Shown here: positions 27,079 through 47,140 of the stretch, piece by piece
Layout of the letters: each line of letters opens with the position of its first letter
Numbering within the stretch: position 1 is the stretch's first letter
DNA from: an uncultured Clostridia bacterium
GTDB lineage: Bacteria > Bacillota > Clostridia > Christensenellales > Aristaeellaceae
DNA length: 57,060 nt
Direction: 5' to 3'
Assembly (NCBI GenBank): GCA_947166705.1
Contig: CAMVFE010000011.1
Location: 1 to 57,060 of the forward strand
The notes under the pieces: generated by a model
What the model was told of the DNA's origin: nothing
What the model saw: the letters and a program-made list of their open reading frames with translations, nothing else
The model's database searches: none
Program-made: the position numbers and the translations under genes

Positions 27079-27085
27079 CATTGAG

Positions 27086-27173
27086 CGGAGAAGCCGGGAT
27101 TTGAACCCGGGCTGCGGTCACCCGCACTACTCCCTTAGCAGGGGAGCCCCTTCGGCCACTTGGGTACTTCTCC
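27086..27173 (-). tRNA. tRNA-Ser (anticodon GCT)
   Basis: An 88-base class II tRNA on the minus strand: acceptor GGAGAAG/CTTCTCC with discriminator G, anticodon stem-loop CCCCTGCTAAGGG, a long variable arm, and a T arm with GGTTCAAATC. CCA is not encoded. It follows tRNA-Ser(TGA) by 12 bases. Confidence 0.96.
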
Positions 27174-27185
27174 AAAGCCGGTGAG

Positions 27186-27271
27186 CGGAGCGAGAGGGAT
27201 TCGAACCCCCGGTACCTTTCGGTATCACTGGTTTTCAAGACCAGCGCCTTCAACCGCTCGGCCATCGCTCC
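27186..27271 (-). tRNA. tRNA-Ser (anticodon TGA)
   Basis: An 86-base class II tRNA on the minus strand: acceptor GGAGCGA paired with CGCTCC plus G, anticodon loop in TGGTCTTGAAAACCA giving TGA, a long variable arm, and a T arm with GGTTCGAATC. First of two tRNA-Ser genes under one promoter. Confidence 0.96.
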
Positions 27272-37299: not shown

Positions 37300-38415
37300 T
37301 CAGCTTCCCTGCCGGGTTTCCTTTTCATCCGCGGGCGCGGTCGTGACGCCCACGGTGACCAGTACGGTCATGCCGGCCCGGACCCTTTCATCCGCGTCGA
37401 TGGAAGCCCGGACCCGGTAGGTCTTTCTGTCGGTTTCCGATTTCTGTTCCGTGTTCCGGTAGGCGATGGACAGGATCTCCCCGGAATAGGTTTTTCCGGT
37501 CTCCGTCTCCCAGTACAGCTCCATGCTGACCTTCATGCCCTCCCGGAGGTAGAACAGATCCGCCTCCGGCGCCTCGAACTCGACGGTCATGCTGTCGGAG
37601 GACGTCACCGTCATCAGCGTGTCCCCCTTGGCGGCAGTTTCCCCGTTCTTCTTCTCGACGCTCGCCGCGAAGCCGTTCACGGGGGAAACGATCCTTTTGT
37701 CCGGCGCGTACAGCCCGTCCAGCACGCCTTCCACCGTTTCAAACAGCATTTCGCCGCGCTCCACAAAATCCCCGTTCTTTACATGTATTTTCAGGACGCT
37801 CCCCGTGCCTTTGACCGCCACGGGCTTGGCCCGGTCCACGGTTCCGCGCCCGATGCAGCTGTCCTTGGCGTAATCCTCCGCACGGAAGGCGTCCACCTTT
37901 TCCTCCATGTAAAAGTCCCCGCCGGTCACCTCGATCTCATAGCCCTTTTCCGTCAGCGCGGAAACGCGGCCTGTGCCCCGGTGGGTTCCGTCCGTCACGC
38001 ATTTCAGGTAGACCTGCTCGCCCAGGTGGATGTAGCGGTTTTCGCTGGCATTGAACGCCTTGTCCGTCGTGGCGGTAATTTTATAGCGGTTCACCGGTTC
38101 GATATACAGGCTGGCCCCATAGCGCTCCGTAATGTCCTCCGCCTTGTCGCCCTCCGCGATATAGAGCCCGGCCACCGTTCCCTCCACGGGGGCGTAATTC
38201 GGCGCCGTCTCGATCTCGGCCAGCGTCTCGCCTTCCAGCACCTGCTCGCCCGGCTGCTTCTGAAGCTTCCGGATCCGGCCGCCGAAGGGGAAGGTCACCG
38301 CCGTCGTTTCCCCGGCGGTCACGGTTCCTTCATAGTACAGGTCCGCCAGGGCAGAGCCCAGGCCGCAGAGAATCATCACAGCGGCCAGGATTCCCGCTGT
38401 CGTCCGCTTCTTCAT
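37300..38415 (-). CDS. HlyD-like adaptor protein (second copy)
   Basis: A 371-residue exported adaptor starting MKKRTTAGILAAVMILCGLGSALA (signal peptide or anchor). Lipoyl-like segments appear twice (FPFGGRIRKLQKQPGEQVLEGETLAEIE near 43-70 and GSVLKIHVKNGDFVERGEMLFETVEG near 205-230). A beta-barrel region (VEFEAPEADLFYLREGMKVSMELYWET) and a C-terminal segment follow. There is no long alpha-hairpin, unlike the copy at 31821, so the two are not simple duplicates. The ATG overlaps the stop of the LRR gene (ATGA). It probably forms part of the same envelope complex. Confidence 0.75.
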   Translation of the reverse strand: MKKRTTAGILAAVMILCGLGSALADLYYEGTVTAGETTAVTFPFGGRIRKLQKQPGEQVLEGETLAEIETAPNYAPVEGTVAGLYIAEGDKAEDITERYGASLYIEPVNRYKITATTDKAFNASENRYIHLGEQVYLKCVTDGTHRGTGRVSALTEKGYEIEVTGGDFYMEEKVDAFRAEDYAKDSCIGRGTVDRAKPVAVKGTGSVLKIHVKNGDFVERGEMLFETVEGVLDGLYAPDKRIVSPVNGFAASVEKKNGETAAKGDTLMTVTSSDSMTVEFEAPEADLFYLREGMKVSMELYWETETGKTYSGEILSIAYRNTEQKSETDRKTYRVRASIDADERVRAGMTVLVTVGVTTAPADEKETRQGS

Positions 38416-39806
38416 CTCGCGCTCTCCTCCTTCCGTGCCGCAGGCGCCGTGTCCGTTTCCCGGCGGATGCCGGTCAGATAGAAGGGCGCCCGGGGATCCT
38501 CCTTCAGTTCGTATGTCCGTCCCTCAACCGTCACCTGACATTCCGGCGGGTTTTCCGTTCCGTCCATGATCAGGGTGTAGTCAAATTTCCTGCCCGGGGT
38601 TCCCCGGCTTTTCAGCTCGTCGTAGGCCCAGCCGGCCAGGAATCCTTCCGTAGGCACGGTAAAGTCCTGTCCGCCCTGCCTGAACCGGAGAAAACCGATC
38701 CCGCTCCGGTTCAGCTTCCGAAGCACGGCGCCGTTCACATGCCACAGGGCGGCTCCGCCCCCGGGGTCCTTTTCGGCTTCCAGGATCAGGATATCTGCCT
38801 CGTCCTCCCGGAGCCCGCTCCCGGCCAGGCCGAGGCGGAACCTGCGCTCCGCGCCCTCCGCGTCCGACAGGCTCAGCTCAAGCTCCTCGCCGCCGAGGGT
38901 CAGCACATGCATGGATTCTTCCGGAATCTCCCCCGGTTTCGGGATATAGACCTGGTCATACCCGTGGAGCACCTTGATCCTGCTCTTTCCGTGGCTTTTT
39001 CGCTTTCCGCCTCCCGGGGCCGCGGGTGCCGCCTCCGGGATATCCCATTCCGGTTCCGGCTCCGGCTCCGGCGTCGCGGTCGGGGAAGGCTTGTGCGTTT
39101 TCGTCGGCTTCGGCGTCTCCTTTTCCGAAGGCTTCTTCGTTCCGGCCGCGCCCTCGAAAGCGTCGCCCGCGATCTCCGGCACGCCTTCCGCAAAGCTGCG
39201 GTCGATCCGGCCGCACCGGCGGAAGGCGCCGTTTCCGATCCGGCGGAGCCGGGTCCCGGAGGAAAGGACAACCTCCTTCAGGGCGGAGCATTCCGCGAAT
39301 GCCTCGTCCTGTATTTCCTCCGCGGAATCCGGCAGGATCACCTTCTCCAGCTTCCCGTCCCCCTGAAAAACGCCCGGCGCGATCACCCGGACGCCTTCCG
39401 GAATCCGGATTTCCTTCTGCCGGTTCATGCCCCGGTACGCCGTCAGGACGCCGTCCCTGATCTCAAAAAGCTCCTCCGCGGGAGGGGGCGTCGTCTGCTC
39501 CGCGGGCGGCGGAGTCGTTGTCTCCGGAGGCGGTGTGGTCTCCGCGGGCGGCGTCGTTTCCGCGGGCGGCGGGGTCGTTGTCTCCGGAGGCGGCGTGGTC
39601 TCCGCGGGCGGCGGAGTCGTCGTTTCCGGAGGCGGCGTCGTCTCCTCGGGCGGCGGAGTCGTCGTTTCCGGAGGCGGCGTCGTCTCCTCCGAAGCGGGCG
39701 TCGTTTCAGCCGGCGGATCATTTTCATCCGCCAGGGCCGCCGGGACCGTCCACGCAATGCCCGCCGCCAGCAGCAGGCAGCAGGCTTTTCTGAAATGGAT
39801 CCTCAT
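38412..39806 (-). CDS. Exported LRR_5 protein with Pro/Thr/Glu repeats
   Basis: A 464-residue protein. The signal peptide is RIHFRKACCLLLAAGIAWTVPAALA. Residues 31-110 are a low-complexity array of TTPPPET/TTPPPAE units, probably an extended wall-spanning stalk. Residues about 113-215 contain BspA-type LRR_5 repeats (IRIPEGVRVIAPGVFQG, LEKVILPDSAEEIQDEAFAEC, LRRIGNGAFRRCG). A second Pro/Lys/Thr linker follows (about 218-250), then a beta-rich C-terminal domain with no family I recognise. The ATG at 39806 is the first in frame with a signal peptide. First gene of the seven-gene operon under the promoter at 39885. Confidence 0.78.
   Translation of the reverse strand: MRIHFRKACCLLLAAGIAWTVPAALADENDPPAETTPASEETTPPPETTTPPPEETTPPPETTTPPPAETTPPPETTTPPPAETTPPAETTPPPETTTPPPAEQTTPPPAEELFEIRDGVLTAYRGMNRQKEIRIPEGVRVIAPGVFQGDGKLEKVILPDSAEEIQDEAFAECSALKEVVLSSGTRLRRIGNGAFRRCGRIDRSFAEGVPEIAGDAFEGAAGTKKPSEKETPKPTKTHKPSPTATPEPEPEPEWDIPEAAPAAPGGGKRKSHGKSRIKVLHGYDQVYIPKPGEIPEESMHVLTLGGEELELSLSDAEGAERRFRLGLAGSGLREDEADILILEAEKDPGGGAALWHVNGAVLRKLNRSGIGFLRFRQGGQDFTVPTEGFLAGWAYDELKSRGTPGRKFDYTLIMDGTENPPECQVTVEGRTYELKEDPRAPFYLTGIRRETDTAPAARKEESAR
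39477..39716 (-). repeat. Coding repeat, Pro/Thr/Glu units
   Basis: Imperfect tandem units of about 21-42 bases that encode ETTPPPE/ETTTPPPA within the LRR protein. Units differ by small changes, so slippage expansion and contraction are likely. Confidence 0.85.
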
Positions 39807-39840
39807 AGGTTCCTTGTTCGTTCCTTTCCGCTTTCGAAAA

Positions 39841-39881
39841 AAATACCAAAAACGGCACGAACCAGTCTCCTGATTCGTGCC
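39841..39881 (-). terminator. Terminator-like hairpin within the operon leader
   Basis: On the minus strand a 12-bp stem (39881-39870 with 39865-39854, one G-T pair) closed by a GAGA tetraloop is followed by GTTTTTGG and then TATTTTTTT. It lies 146 bases after the stop of the second PRPP synthetase gene and could end that transcript. It also starts at about +1 of the promoter at 39885. Confidence 0.78.
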
Positions 39882-39884
39882 CTG

Positions 39885-39913
39885 ATTATACCTTTTTCCC
39901 CGCATCCTGTCCA
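39885..39913 (-). promoter_or_regulatory. Promoter of the seven-gene operon
   Basis: Minus strand: TGGACA (39908-39913), 17-base spacer, perfect TATAAT (39885-39890). The predicted start (about 39878) falls in the 5' arm of the hairpin at 39854-39881. The LRR gene starts about 72 bases later. Confidence 0.8.
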
Positions 39914-40026
39914 TGATTTGCGGGTTTTGTTACAAATGGCGGCCTGCCGTCCCTCCCCGGCGCGGGGGACGCGGGAGGCGCGTCTCCCCCGTCCCGTCTT
40001 TCCGTGGGTGCGGGAAGCGCCGCGCC

Positions 40027-41223: not shown

Positions 41224-42108
41224 TTACTCCGGAATCTTCCCGAAGCAGATCATGCTTCCCTGGGAGCGCAGCCCGTCGCCGCCCGTTTCCAGCATTTTCC
41301 CGTTGAACATCATGGTGACGGTCTGTCCCCCGTCCAGGTTCAGCGCTTCCGTGCATCCCCGGTCCTTCATCAGCTGCGCCAGCCAGTCCAGATGCACCCC
41401 GGCGTAGCTTTGCTTCGGCCGGCCGCGGACCACCACCGCCACATAATGCCAGGGCTCCACCATCCCGATGGCCGCGCGGGGCTCGTTGTAGGGATAATAC
41501 TTGGGATTCAGAACCTCCGGATTGATCTCTCCCCCGGAGAGGAGCCACGGGCCGAAGGAGAACACCTGCACCGCGCCCATGGAAAGGTATTCCTCCGCGG
41601 TGTGCGCGTCGCAGACAAAGGTCTGCATACGGCCGTCCGGAAACAGCGCCAGGGTGTCCAGGTTCGGCCAGGGGCGCTTTTTGGCGCTGTTCCGGGTCTT
41701 CTCCGCCATGATCTCCCCGTCCCGGATCACCACGCCCTGAAACTTATAGCGCTGCAGCCGGATGCCGTACATATCGTCGCTCATGGCAAACAGCGGGGCC
41801 GCCTTCTCCTGCAGCAGCTCCGGGCTGACCAGTTTGTATCCGGCGGGGCGCTTCTTCGTGGGATCCGTCATCACCGGGTACAGCGGGGATTCCGGGGAAG
41901 CCTGAATGTCCGCCACGCAGTATTCCCGGGTTTTTTTCGTTTTTCCGGACTTCACGCTCTCCGTGATTCTTTCGATCGTGATCGTCAGGCTCCCGGAGCG
42001 GTATTCCCATTTCCCGTTCTCCGGATCCTCGATCAGCGCAGGCTCCTCCGCCGCGCAGGCGGTGAGCAGCGCCGCGGCAGCCAGCAGCGCGGCCATCCAG
42101 CGTTTCAT
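41224..42108 (-). CDS. Phosphodiester glycosidase (NAGPA) domain lipoprotein
   Basis: A 294-residue exported protein with a lipobox-like LLTACAAE (Cys about 18). The C-terminal half is the NAGPA-type domain: ALFPDGRMQTFVCDAHTAEEYLSMGAVQVFSFGPWLLSGGE, RAAIGMVEPWHYVAVVVRGR, DWLAQLMKDRGCTEALNLDGGQTVTMMFNG. In characterised relatives the domain cleaves sugar phosphodiesters, including wall polymer or exopolysaccharide modifications; the substrate here is unknown. AGGAGG is about 10 bases before the ATG. It lies between the SDR (87 bases upstream) and the second PRPP synthetase, all leftward. Confidence 0.85.
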   Translation of the reverse strand: MKRWMAALLAAAALLTACAAEEPALIEDPENGKWEYRSGSLTITIERITESVKSGKTKKTREYCVADIQASPESPLYPVMTDPTKKRPAGYKLVSPELLQEKAAPLFAMSDDMYGIRLQRYKFQGVVIRDGEIMAEKTRNSAKKRPWPNLDTLALFPDGRMQTFVCDAHTAEEYLSMGAVQVFSFGPWLLSGGEINPEVLNPKYYPYNEPRAAIGMVEPWHYVAVVVRGRPKQSYAGVHLDWLAQLMKDRGCTEALNLDGGQTVTMMFNGKMLETGGDGLRSQGSMICFGKIPE

Positions 42109-42194: not shown

Positions 42195-43013
42195 TTATTT
42201 CCGGATGTAATAGCTTCGCAGAATGAGCTCGTTCCAGCGCGCCGGCAGAAATTTATGCAGATACACCGCCAGATGCTGGTCCGGGCTGGCGATGCGTTTC
42301 CGGAAGGGCATCCGTTTCCGCCCGAGCGCCCGCGCCACCTTCCGCCCCAGCCGGTCCGGATCGCTGCCGTGGGTCTCATCGTGATGAATCCGCGCGGTCG
42401 CGCTCTCAAAGGCCGCGGCGTAAGGGGAGCCGGCGCCGGACCGCGCCGCGTGGGGGCGGTATTTATCGCTTCCGCTGCGGTGGTCCCCGGGCTCCACCAG
42501 CATCACCTGGATTCCGAAGGGGCGGACCTCCATCTGCAGGCCCTCCGCGTATCCTTCAATGGCATGCTTGCTGGCGGTATAGGCGTTCTGAAAGGGAATG
42601 CCCATCAGCCCGTTGATGGAGGAATACATCACGATCCGGCCCTCCTTCTGGGCACGCATGATGGGCAGCGCCTGGCGGTTCACCCGCACCATGCCCAGAA
42701 AATTGGTCTCCATGACCCGGCTGTACTCCTCCTGGGATGTTTCCTCGCAGGAACCCAGCACCAGCATGCCCGCGCACTGCACCACCGCGGAGACCCAGGG
42801 CGAGATTTCCAGCGCCCGGTCGCAGAAGGCGCGGACACTCTCCTCCCGGGTCACGTCCAGCGGCAGCAGGTGCATCCCGTCCTTCTCCTCCGGCACCGAA
42901 AAGCTCCGCGCGCCGGCGATCACCGTCCATCCCGCGTCCCGCAGCGCCATGGCCGTATGCAGTCCCAGCCCGCTTGAGGCCCCGGTGACCCAGACCGTTT
43001 TCGGATGTGTCAT
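42195..43013 (-). CDS. Short-chain dehydrogenase/reductase
   Basis: A 272-residue NAD(P)-binding SDR. The nucleotide motif TGASSGLGLH lies at residues 9-18, NNAG is replaced by CAGM, and the catalytic set is Ser in MYSSINGLMG and Tyr-x-x-x-Lys in AYTASKHAIEG (about 152-162). The C-terminal 80 residues are basic and ill-defined. The ATG at 43013 overlaps the stop of the nuclease fusion gene (ATGA) and has GGAGG seven bases upstream; an earlier ATG would lie inside that gene. Substrate unknown. The coupling to a nuclease gene has no obvious metabolic sense. Confidence 0.9.
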   Translation of the reverse strand: MTHPKTVWVTGASSGLGLHTAMALRDAGWTVIAGARSFSVPEEKDGMHLLPLDVTREESVRAFCDRALEISPWVSAVVQCAGMLVLGSCEETSQEEYSRVMETNFLGMVRVNRQALPIMRAQKEGRIVMYSSINGLMGIPFQNAYTASKHAIEGYAEGLQMEVRPFGIQVMLVEPGDHRSGSDKYRPHAARSGAGSPYAAAFESATARIHHDETHGSDPDRLGRKVARALGRKRMPFRKRIASPDQHLAVYLHKFLPARWNELILRSYYIRK

Positions 43014-44608
43014 CCCTTCTCCTCCGTTTCCGCGCCGTCCCGTTCCTGAATCAGGCGCAGCTTTTCCTTCCGGGTCAGGCGCTTCAGGTGCCATTCCCGG
43101 CTCATCGCTTCCTGCCGGGTGCCGAATGCCTCGGCGTAGACCAGCCTGACCGGCCTCCGGCTCCGGGTGTATCGGGCGCCGCGTCCTTCGTTGTGCTTCC
43201 GCACCCGTCCCTCAAGATCGTCGGTCCATCCGCAGTACAGGGATCCGTCCGCGCATTCCACCAGGTAGGTGTAATTTCCCTTCTCCGGCAGGGCGCTCCT
43301 CTGCCGCAGAATCCGGATCAAATGAGGATCCGCCTTCCGCAGGCGCCGCAGAAAGCTTTTTCCCCGCGGCGACGCGGCCCAGTCCGCGGGGATCAGGAAG
43401 ATCCTTCGCCCCGCGAAATCCCTCTCCCCCGGCCCGTCCGTCCATCCCGCCGGAAACTCGGCGGGCTCCACCAGCAGGGTTCCGCAGTCTTCCGGCCTGC
43501 CCCGCCTTCCCGCGCGGATCCCCCGGGCCCGAAGCTCCGCGTCCGTCCGCAGCAGCTCCGTCCGGTCCGGGGCAATCCAGTATGTCCTCGATCCCGGAAT
43601 CCGCTCCCCTGCCCAGATCAGCAGGGATACCAGCATCCCCGTCTCCCCCGCGGCTCCCGCCGCGGGCAGCATCCCGCCGGGACGGCCCTGCCGGAGCCTC
43701 ATCTCCTGGCGCCAGAGCGCGAAAAACTGGGCGGAGGACAGCAGCCTTTTACGGGCGCCGCCGTCTTCCGTCTCGAAGCGGATACCGTACCGGAGGAAAA
43801 ACAGAAACCTTTCCGGGGAGAACAATCCGCTGAGCATCCTGTGGGCGGCGGTTTTCGGGGACAGATTCCGCCGAAGCTCTCCCGGCGCAATCCGCCCGTC
43901 CATCCCGCAGTCCTTCAGGATCAGGGCCTCCGTCTCCCGGTTCCGGGGCTCAAGGGCGGGCAGCGAGCCGGGAGCTCCTTCCTGAAAGGCATGGAGGCAG
44001 AAATCGCCCTCCGCCGCCGTGCCGTAGCAGGCGCCCTCCGTGGGCAGCAGCCGGTTCGGATCGTTCTCCCGGTCGTTGCAGAACGCCCAGACCTGGGCCG
44101 CCTGAAGGAAGGGGCGGAACGCCTTCCTCCGGAACCGCTCCATCATCCGATCGTACTCCGCCCGGATGCCCCGGGGCTGCCTGCCGGTTTTGACCTCGAT
44201 CATGGCCAGCGGCAGGCCGTTGACATACAGGGTGATATCCGGACGGAAAACGGCGCCGTCCCGCGCGCAGGCGGTCTCCGGCGCCGCCCCGAAGCGGTTG
44301 CGCTCCGGCGCGTAAAAATCTATCAGGCGCAGGCCCTCCCATCCGTCCCGGATCATCGCGTAAAAGGCCTGGCCAAGGTCCTCCCGCTCCATCCGGTCCC
44401 GCAGCGCGTCAAGCAGCCGCCGGAACTCCTCTTCCGCCGGCTCGCGCCCGTTGATCCGGGCCAGCGCTTTCCGCAGGATGTCCGGGATCAGGCCGGTTTC
44501 CCGGTCCCGGCCGTGGATTCTCCGGGGCAGATATCCGTATCCGAGGCGGCACAGGTGAATCAGCGCCGGAATCTTCATCCGCGCGTCTTCCTGTCGGACT
44601 CCCGGCAT
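43010..44608 (-). CDS. HsdR nuclease domain, dead helicase remnant and GIY-YIG nuclease in one protein
   Basis: A 532-residue chain. Residues about 10-215 match the HSDR_N domain of type I restriction R subunits, with the PD-(D/E)xK site intact (D124 in FRPDITLYVNG, E138 and K140 in MIEVKTG). Residues about 285-435 match the start of the HsdR helicase, but Walker A is PAAGAAGETGML instead of GSGKS, and the DEAH position reads PADW. Residues 444-521 are a full GIY-YIG (UPF0213-type) nuclease: NYTYLVECADGSLYCGW, LEGRVRKHN, GARYT, and the catalytic Glu in RQEAMSREWHLKR. No hsdM or hsdS is nearby. The ATG at 44608 has GGAGG eight bases upstream; ATGs at 44641 and 44578 are alternatives. No stop or frameshift interrupts it. 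Confidence 0.83.
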   Translation of the reverse strand: MPGVRQEDARMKIPALIHLCRLGYGYLPRRIHGRDRETGLIPDILRKALARINGREPAEEEFRRLLDALRDRMEREDLGQAFYAMIRDGWEGLRLIDFYAPERNRFGAAPETACARDGAVFRPDITLYVNGLPLAMIEVKTGRQPRGIRAEYDRMMERFRRKAFRPFLQAAQVWAFCNDRENDPNRLLPTEGACYGTAAEGDFCLHAFQEGAPGSLPALEPRNRETEALILKDCGMDGRIAPGELRRNLSPKTAAHRMLSGLFSPERFLFFLRYGIRFETEDGGARKRLLSSAQFFALWRQEMRLRQGRPGGMLPAAGAAGETGMLVSLLIWAGERIPGSRTYWIAPDRTELLRTDAELRARGIRAGRRGRPEDCGTLLVEPAEFPAGWTDGPGERDFAGRRIFLIPADWAASPRGKSFLRRLRKADPHLIRILRQRSALPEKGNYTYLVECADGSLYCGWTDDLEGRVRKHNEGRGARYTRSRRPVRLVYAEAFGTRQEAMSREWHLKRLTRKEKLRLIQERDGAETEEKG

Positions 44609-44678
44609 GGGCCGCCCCTCCCCCCCGAAAAGCTTATCCATGGCTCAGCTGCCGAAATCATACCACATTTTCAGGCAG

Positions 44679-44725
44679 GAAAAAAGCCCGCCCGGCAGAT
44701 CCCCGAAGGAATCCGCAGGCGGGCT
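44679..44725 (-). terminator. Terminator of the rubredoxin gene
   Basis: AGCCCGCC (44685-44692) pairs with GGCGGGCT (44718-44725) and, on the minus strand, is followed by a run of T. It lies just after the rubredoxin stop and before the nuclease fusion gene. Confidence 0.8.
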
Positions 44726-44733
44726 GTCCGCGT

Positions 44734-44892
44734 TTATTCAACTTCCGTAAAGGCGTCCTTTCCCAGGCCGCATACGGGGCAGACCCAGTCCTCGGGAATA
44801 TCCTCGAAAGCAGTGCCGGGGGCGATGCCGCTGTCCGGATCGCCGGCTTCGGGATCATAAATATATCCGCAGGGGCATTCGTACTTCTTCAT
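44734..44892 (-). CDS. Rubredoxin
   Basis: A 52-residue electron carrier with one Fe(Cys)4 site. It reads [18 protein letters not shown] near the start and [14 protein letters not shown] near the end. The Cys pairs are C-P-C (residues 6 and 8) and C-P-V-C (38 and 41). The first pair is C-x-C rather than the usual C-x-x-C, a known variant. GGAGGAAACAGC precedes the ATG. The length, [11 protein letters not shown] and the terminator directly behind it support a complete gene. It may serve oxygen detoxification; partners are not adjacent. Confidence 0.93.
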
Positions 44893-46105: not shown

Positions 46106-47140
46106 TCAGCCGTTCCAGGGCGCGGCCTGTTCCCCTTCCGGGGTCTCCGCCTGCTCATCCGACTGCTGCGGAACCACCTGGATGACCTGGCTTTCGCCGT
46201 TCGTGTTCAGCATGCCCGGATCCAGCACGATGTAGATCACATAGGGCGGGTTTTCCGTATCCCCGCCGGCCTGGGCGGGAGCCTGGACCGGAGCGGCCGC
46301 CGGAGCCTGAGCCGGAGCCTGGGCCGACGTCTCCTCCTCCACGGGCACGATGTCCACCCGAAGCAGGTCGCCGCGGATATATCCCACGTAACCGGAGTAC
46401 AGCTTCACCGCGTACCAGGTTTCCCCGGCGCTGTTCAGTACTTCCGCGGTCACCTCGACCTCCGTGCCCGCCTGCAGGATCCGCGTAACCCACCCGCTGC
46501 GGGTGCTGGCCATGGTGCGGACGTTCACCTTGTGAACCGTCGTCCACCCGCGCCCGATGACCGGCGTGCTGCGGATAATGGTTTCCAGGGGATAGACATA
46601 TCCGCCGCTGTGGCGCCTGCGGCTGCCGGAAGATCCCGAGCCGGAGCCGGCGCTGGAACTGGCGCTTGAGCTGGAGCTCCCGCCGGCGGAGGACGCCGCG
46701 GCTCCCGCCGAAGCGGAGCCGCCCGACGCGCTGCTCGAGGAGCTGGAGCTGCTCGTGGTCGTGGTGGTGGTCGTCGTCGTGGTGGTGCTGCTGGAGCTGG
46801 AGGAGCTGCTGCTTCCCCCGCCCGTGCTGACCGCACTCGAGGAGGTATCCCCCGCGCTGGCCGAAGCCGCGCCCGCGCCGGCGCCGGCGCCGTCGTCCCC
46901 CGTGCTCACGGAAGCCGCGCTGACCTCCGCGCTGGTATTCGGCGTGGAAGCGGATGCGGATCCGCTGGAGGCGGACGCGTCCCCGCTTCCCGAAGTGGAT
47001 ACCGCGGAATCCGCGCTCGAGGATCCCGCGTCCGCCGCGGAGGAGCCGCTGCCGCTCTCTCCCAGCGCCGCGGCCGTGAAGGCGACGCACAGCGTCAGCA
47101 CCGCCGCGAGAAGAATCATCAGTCCGTTCTTCCTTTTCAT
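46106..47140 (-). CDS. Exported SH3-domain protein with Ser/Thr homopolymer stalk
   Basis: A 344-residue exported protein. The signal peptide is LMILLAAVLTLCVAFTAAALG. Residues about 30-175 are low complexity, mainly Ser, Ala and Gly, with a run of nine Ser, eleven Thr and eight Ser. A bacterial SH3 (SH3_3-like) domain follows at about 200-262 (TVHKVNVRTMASTRSGWVTRILQAGTEVEVTAEV, WYAVKLYSGYVGYIRGDLLRV), then a Pro/Ala/Gln-rich tail. It is probably a cell-wall-associated surface protein, with the stalk spanning the wall. The promoter at 47269 leaves a leader of about 120 bases. Confidence 0.82.
   Translation of the reverse strand: MKRKNGLMILLAAVLTLCVAFTAAALGESGSGSSAADAGSSSADSAVSTSGSGDASASSGSASASTPNTSAEVSAASVSTGDDGAGAGAGAASASAGDTSSSAVSTGGGSSSSSSSSSTTTTTTTTTTTSSSSSSSSASGGSASAGAAASSAGGSSSSSASSSAGSGSGSSGSRRRHSGGYVYPLETIIRSTPVIGRGWTTVHKVNVRTMASTRSGWVTRILQAGTEVEVTAEVLNSAGETWYAVKLYSGYVGYIRGDLLRVDIVPVEEETSAQAPAQAPAAAPVQAPAQAGGDTENPPYVIYIVLDPGMLNTNGESQVIQVVPQQSDEQAETPEGEQAAPWNG
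46733..46818 (-). repeat. Triplet repeats encoding poly-Ser/poly-Thr
   Basis: Near-homogeneous runs of Ser and Thr codons (AGC/TCC-type and ACN) within the SH3 protein. They should be prone to replication slippage and to assembly error. Confidence 0.8.

Follow-up and report, generated by a model that had tools for sequence, protein, structure and literature searches.

The gene at positions 43010 to 44608 of the minus strand in the window analyzed here (the whole stretch of 57,060 nucleotides of contig CAMVFE010000011.1, assembly GCA_947166705.1, from an uncultured Clostridia bacterium of the family Aristaeellaceae) encodes a chimeric protein. The N-terminal nuclease domain of a type I restriction subunit (HsdR) is joined, through a truncated RecA1 segment that has lost both Walker motifs, to a complete GIY-YIG nuclease domain of the UPF0213 type. 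The chimera is not a chance frame, as colinear fused homologs with 43–56% identity are present in nine other genomes. Alignment of these proteins indicates that both nuclease ends are conserved and the middle is loosely conserved, and the chimera looks to have been preserved by selection. There is an even chance, in our judgment, that the protein functions as an ATP-independent, sequence-nonspecific two-nuclease enzyme that processes DNA for genome upkeep. If both sites cut DNA, this would be a compact two-nuclease enzyme needing no ATP, methyltransferase, or specificity subunit.

Domain architecture of the chimera

The original prediction, made from the letters of the window, described an uninterrupted frame of about 532 codons and gave no strand. 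The frame was confirmed at the same coordinates and lies on the minus strand. An alternative first ATG at 44641 would yield a protein of 543 residues (43010–44641, minus strand); residue numbers below refer to this longer form unless they are marked as belonging to the 532-residue numbering of the original prediction. By eye, ATG 44608 (M12 of 543) is the better start, with a G-rich Shine-Dalgarno-like run just 5' of it and none 5' of 44641. The features of the gene, all on the minus strand, are as follows:

43010..44608, minus: chimeric HsdR/GIY-YIG gene, 532 residues from ATG 44608 (open frame, homologs)
44069..44593, minus: HSDR_N PD-(D/E)xK nuclease domain, residues 17–191 of 543 (PF04313, E 4.5e-20)
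44237..44239, minus: catalytic Asp, D135 (D124 in the 532-residue numbering), aligned with D151 of EcoR124I HsdR
44189..44197, minus: ExK, E149 and K151 (E138 and K140 in the 532-residue numbering), aligned with E165 and K167 of EcoR124I HsdR
43292..43789, minus: degenerate HsdR RecA1 segment, residues 285–450, without Walker A, DEAH, or motif III
43631..43666, minus: former P-loop, PAAGAAGETGML, aligned to HTQGSGKT of full-length HsdRs
43379..43390, minus: former DEAH box, PADW, aligned to DEAH of full-length HsdRs
43061..43276, minus: GIY-YIG nuclease domain, UPF0213 type, residues 456–527 (PF01541, E 6.5e-19; 1zg2, E 4.7e-20)

The N-terminal domain is that of a type I R subunit. The PD-(D/E)xK site, which the original prediction had called intact, is borne out by alignment with EcoR124I HsdR (residue numbers counted from the HMMER alignment, E165 agreeing with the E165H mutant in the title of PDB entry 4xjx) and by the invariance of D135, E149, and K151 across 13/13 family sequences, which comprise ten fused proteins, that of the window included, and three HsdR parts that occur without GIY-YIG. 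As these lone HsdR parts also keep the D, E, and K, the HsdR nuclease seems, from its sequence, to be under selection independent of GIY-YIG.

Similar to type I HsdR (EcoR124I; PDB 2w00, 6h2j, 4xjx), the chimera begins with the restriction nuclease domain. In contrast to type I HsdR, it lacks Walker A and B, motif III, RecA2, and the C-terminal helical part, no hsdM partner was found for it, and a GIY-YIG domain is appended. Only HSDR_N and GIY-YIG exceed the Pfam cut-offs, with no family above cut-off between them, and the full-length model TIGR00348 scores 49.2 bits, short of its cut-off of 284.55. HsdR homology extends to motif III and is followed by the GIY-YIG domain. The loss of both Walker motifs, already read from the letters, is upheld: the window protein has PAAGAAGET where all six full-length HsdRs compared have HTQGSGKT, and all 13 family sequences lack an intact Walker A and an intact DEAH, while both are present in 6/6 full-length HsdRs. 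The middle segment nonetheless retains the signature of a RecA fold of the superfamily 2 (SF2) type. An hhalign comparison of this segment alone with HsdR RecA1 gave a probability of 96.5% (E 9.2e-10, 149 columns), and a fold match was obtained as well, in agreement with the structural match to a RecA fold that the original prediction had called for in residues 285–435 (532-residue numbering). A search of the PDB with a profile of the RecA remnant returned no HsdR match and two weak others (E 0.55 and 0.76), and the remnant modeled alone, with no alignment, had a predicted local distance difference test score (pLDDT) of 46.

The GIY-YIG domain is complete and in the same frame, as originally described, and its UPF0213 character is evident from its match to 1zg2, the UPF0213 protein BH0048. 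The complete domain is common to the chimera and the UPF0213 structures 1zg2 and 1ywl; these are single-domain proteins of about 100 residues, whereas in the chimera the domain makes up approximately the last sixth of a single frame shared with HSDR_N and is not a small free-standing protein. Residues Y459, Y469, R479, and H483 are invariant in 10/10 fused proteins. Separate translation of the GIY-YIG part was considered and rejected, as none of the ten fused genes has an in-frame start with a Shine-Dalgarno-like motif in the region from 35 codons 5' of the domain to five codons inside it.

Conservation across the ten fused proteins is uneven. Mean identity is 57% in the nuclease, 45% in the following segment, 33% in the RecA remnant, and 71% in GIY-YIG, and the invariant positions number 44/175, 11/93, 5/166, and 38/80, respectively. 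The mean ratios of nonsynonymous to synonymous differences (pN/pS) are 0.52, 0.65, 0.77, and 0.34 in the same order, although the distances are saturated and the ratios are a rough guide. The weak constraint on the RecA remnant and its truncation suggest something closer to a leftover spacer than to a rebuilt domain. The original description of a two-nuclease, HsdR-derived protein with an inactivated RecA1 domain is supported.

Distribution and origin of the fusion

The full chimera is present in 10/45 genomes of the genus, including that of the window. The search of other genomes for the same architecture, which the original prediction had proposed, thus added nine fused genomes, all within the genus. 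The chimera of G017 is one intact frame, though the genome search split it into two matches. Beyond the genus, overlapping sets of 308 genomes from the family, 396 from the order, and 398 from the phylum showed no chimera, in a search that scored three to four candidates per genome, in part under stricter limits (E <= 1e-20 or E <= 1e-60), settings at which rare or diverged fusions could be missed. Contig scans gave 26 loci with every match in the GIY-YIG end, a viral scan gave 20 loci matching the HsdR part, and a plasmid search with the chimera gave ten records, each of which covered less than 80% of the query. The HsdR part occurs alone (458–503 residues) in 3/45 genus genomes (G041, G011, and G003), each with a separate UPF0213 gene elsewhere. 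These free-standing, ATPase-dead HsdR N-halves lie at L065 8129–9568, L066 8387–9898, and L068 7271–8647, on contigs without a PF02384 match. Full-length HsdR is found in G023 and G035 beside hsdM (PF02384) and an hsdS-like gene (named by eye).

A separate UPF0213 gene was found in 0/10 fused genomes (54–97% complete) and in 30/35 other genomes of the genus (Fisher 9.4e-7, for genomes that are not phylogenetically independent). These separate GIY-YIG genes in relatives were never seen beside an intact hsdR, the arrangement that the original prediction had named as evidence against it.

The neighborhood of the chimera suggests where the fusion took place. The features flanking it, all on the minus strand, are as follows:

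42195..43013, minus: short-chain dehydrogenase/reductase (SDR) gene, its start overlapping the chimera stop (PF00106, E 1.1e-39)
41224..42108, minus: NAGPA (phosphodiester glycosidase) gene, downstream of the chimera (PF09992, E 5.6e-21)
44657..44662, minus: possible -10 element TATGAT with TGG before it (by eye; not listed by the promoter scan)
44734..44892, minus: small rubredoxin-like gene of 52 residues (name by eye), upstream, between the HAD gene and the chimera

The overlap of the chimera stop with the SDR start, noted in the original prediction, takes the form ATGA (43010–43013) with GGAGGAG upstream. Terminator-like stems at 44687–44707 precede the possible -10 element. SDR comes next after the chimera at 7/9 other fused loci (exceptions G026 and G043), and NAGPA lies downstream at 7/9 (G018 stops at a contig edge and none is present in the 7-kb contig of G013). 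Eight of these other loci have upstream sequence; HflX lies there in six of them, a small gene in seven, HAD in six, and the rubredoxin-like gene in seven, where it is 88–94% identical to that of the window and in opposite orientation in G031. The unfused genomes G036 and G008 carry free GIY-YIG, SDR, and NAGPA genes in that order, and GIY-YIG adjoins SDR at a contig edge in G024; a UPF0213 gene is present in 30 unfused genomes, and it directly precedes SDR in these three. In the remaining 27, the UPF0213 gene and the best SDR match are apart, or SDR was poorly found.

A tree of HflX from 42/45 genus genomes was rooted at its midpoint (G005, G015, and G042 have no HflX match at 1e-150). A branch with support 100/99 separates the ten fused genomes from the rest, and the next branch (97/93) sets apart the fused genomes together with G036. 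Most simply, these results reflect a single fusion event within the GIY-YIG–SDR–NAGPA operon that replaced the free GIY-YIG copy. In the ancestor of one clade, the 5' part of an hsdR gene (nuclease and RecA1 up to motif III) would have been joined, in one reading frame, to the UPF0213 gene already in place. The fusion point would be the head of the operon, and the chimera would have become the lineage's sole copy of that GIY-YIG gene.

The lone HsdR parts were considered as pre-fusion ancestors, and this was rejected. In the tree of HsdR parts, which has a long branch to full-length HsdR (1.71) and odd composition in 10/29 rows, those of G041, G011, and G003 nest within the fused set, beside G018 (99/96), and the approximately unbiased test rejects a tree in which the fused rows are kept as one group (p-AU 0.013). 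In the HflX tree, the genomes with lone parts fall outside the fused branch, at two separate places elsewhere in the genus. Because the lone parts lie inside the fused set and the alternative tree is rejected, it is likely, though not certain, from these sequences that the HsdR fragment later left the chimera and moved between lineages. A search for a GIY-YIG remnant behind the lone HsdR parts gave only a short, unconvincing resemblance at the end of that in G041 (10/17 residues, E 0.064). The chimera offers a well-resolved capture of a restriction-enzyme fragment by a chromosomal operon, with stages that can be read from living genomes: an unfused nearest relative, one fused branch, motor motifs lost, nuclease kept, and an apparent later spread of the fragment.

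Proposed function and alternative explanations

Type I R subunits require their ATPase for translocation. The chimera is predicted to be unable to translocate and to lack target recognition, so that any cutting would have to be directed by the structure or the ends of the DNA. In the genome-upkeep reading, the GIY-YIG end would keep an ancestral Slx1-like task, the cutting of branched or flapped DNA, and the HsdR nuclease would make a further cut or trim ends, with the RecA1 remnant perhaps serving as a DNA-side scaffold or spacer. The chimera would then work in routine genome upkeep and not as a methylation-guided restriction enzyme. The original prediction had also reported no hsdM or hsdS nearby. 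The first part holds more broadly, as no PF02384 match is present anywhere in the window's genome (71% complete). Matches above 40 bits are likewise missing from 7/10 fused genomes; strong ones occur in G017, G026, and G039, on contigs other than those of the chimera. As to the second part, no hsdS was recognized among the neighbors, for which no Methylase_S profile search was made.

UPF0213 includes YhbQ of E. coli and YazA of B. subtilis. Structure-directed processing is favored because YhbQ and YazA have been grouped with Slx1 (PMC7017083) and because, as described for XPF, ATPase-dead RecA domains can act as a DNA-binding platform for a nuclease (PMC7048804). Among the closest known systems is MCA0838 of Methylococcus capsulatus, an HsdR that is typical apart from a GIY-YIG domain inserted near position 800; a close homolog lacks the insertion, and the authors doubted its relevance (PMC1564403). 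Similar to the chimera, MCA0838 combines HsdR and an Slx1-like GIY-YIG in one polypeptide. In contrast, the HsdR of the chimera ends after RecA1, is ATPase-dead, and recurs as a fusion in ten genomes. Fusions of a motor-less HsdR nuclease part to HsdM are known (PMC8432527), and type IIB/IIG enzymes have been described as relatives of type I that lack the motor (PMC6158711). These share with the chimera a motor-less restriction nuclease, but its partner in them is a methyltransferase, accompanied in IIB/IIG by target recognition, whereas the partner here is a second nuclease and the chimera shows neither methyltransferase nor target-recognition domains by Pfam. Literature searches on UPF0213, GIY-YIG/HsdR fusions, and truncated or orphan HsdR turned up, among the results listed, no HsdR that is truncated, ATPase-dead, joined to UPF0213, and present in ten genomes. 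In the literature covered, HsdR and GIY-YIG in one chain are on record once (MCA0838).

Several observations weigh against the proposed role in genome upkeep, or against the history on which it draws. None of the neighboring genes identified is one for DNA repair, and the upstream neighborhood of G031 differs from that of the other fused loci. The Glu of the AMSREW stretch, presumably a catalytic residue of GIY-YIG, is Asp in 1/10 fused proteins (G026, L063 7641–9248). The GIY-YIG tree, which is poorly resolved (4/28 inner branches well supported), neither unites the fused domains, which need two changes, nor places G036 beside them. The HsdR part evolves faster (57% and 33% identity) than GIY-YIG (71%) or HflX (81–85% identity between the other fused genomes and the window), and this, together with the lone HsdR parts in three genomes, would also suit a defense gene. 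Finally, since UPF0213 joins several unrelated enzymes, the fusion is by itself weak evidence of functional coupling, and the HsdR/GIY-YIG pairing may be incidental.

An anti-phage or anti-plasmid effector is the main alternative, one that is possible but on balance improbable. Such a protein would cut invading DNA by its structure (ends, replication forks) with no methylation guidance. The fast evolution just described is in keeping with this role, as are the HsdR ancestry, the REase_I matches in a PADLOC scan of the chimera (best E 3e-11), and the three genomes with a lone HsdR part, whose placement in the HsdR-part tree conflicts with the HflX tree. However, the locus is largely stable and descent is apparently vertical in the ten fused genomes, where the chimera carries the sole UPF0213 copy found. 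The protein also has no part for self/non-self discrimination, and the flanking genes that could be identified from their counterparts in the window include no defense genes, others not having been scanned with family models.

It is unlikely that two neighboring frames simply merged, leaving two independently useful nucleases with no joint mechanism. Elsewhere UPF0213 is fused to M32 carboxypeptidase (three cases), 4HBT (two), GNAT (two), and 2-thiouracil desulfurase (one), the linker and RecA remnant of the chimera are poorly conserved, and the HsdR part can occur without GIY-YIG, all of which are in keeping with an incidental fusion. On the other hand, the chimera is present in all ten genomes of its branch of the HflX tree, and DNA is the kind of substrate common to both ends. 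That the gene is a decaying restriction gene retained merely as a leader for GIY-YIG is very improbable: the RecA1 remnant looks the part (5/166 positions invariant, mean pN/pS 0.77), but the nuclease domain does not (44/175, 0.52) and its catalytic residues are kept even where GIY-YIG is absent.

A more specific reading draws on XPF-SLX1, in which ATPase-dead SF2 RecA domains lie beside a nuclease and SLX4 provides the link to a nuclease of the Slx1 type (PMC7048804, PMC7017083). The likeness is one of working principle. The two differ in nuclease motif, domain order is reversed, and XPF and SLX1 are separate proteins, making this an analogy only. The chimera has IEVK in place of the GDXnERKX3D motif of XPF/ERCC4, with no ERKxxxD, and no tandem helix-hairpin-helix (HhH) domains; Pfam detected no HhH family in it at E up to 1. 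It is improbable that the chimera is a bacterial single-chain counterpart of XPF-SLX1, built by domestication of a restriction enzyme and fixed in a single bacterial lineage. Under this proposal, the ATPase-dead RecA would present the PD-(D/E)xK nuclease to branched DNA and the tethered GIY-YIG would make the partner incision.

Other UPF0213 fusions and features of the window

Nine long frames with a UPF0213 domain were scanned, and a second family passed in eight of them; as the frames were chosen by length, this is not a fusion rate. The scan suggests, from sequence, that UPF0213 is a fusion-prone domain. The M32 carboxypeptidase fusions, each in one frame, lie at L215 2977–5214, L216 879–3050, and L217 2660–4783, from three genomes (G319, G322, and G323) of another genus of the same family. 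The 4HBT thioesterase fusions are at L034 5105–5770 and L035 6961–7626, those with GNAT acetyltransferase at L032 1464–2246 and L033 7980–8762, and that with 2-thiouracil desulfurase at L220 1252–2253 (G012, of the same genus as the window).

Elsewhere in the window, a pair of adjacent tRNA-Ser genes with anticodons GCT and TGA is found at 27085–27173 and 27185–27271 (minus strand). The gene at 38412–39914 (minus strand) encodes a leucine-rich-repeat-like protein (by eye) with long (P)ETTTPPP repeats after its N-terminus, and that at 46106–47140 (minus strand) encodes a long Ser/Thr-rich low-complexity stretch followed by an SH3-like domain (by eye).

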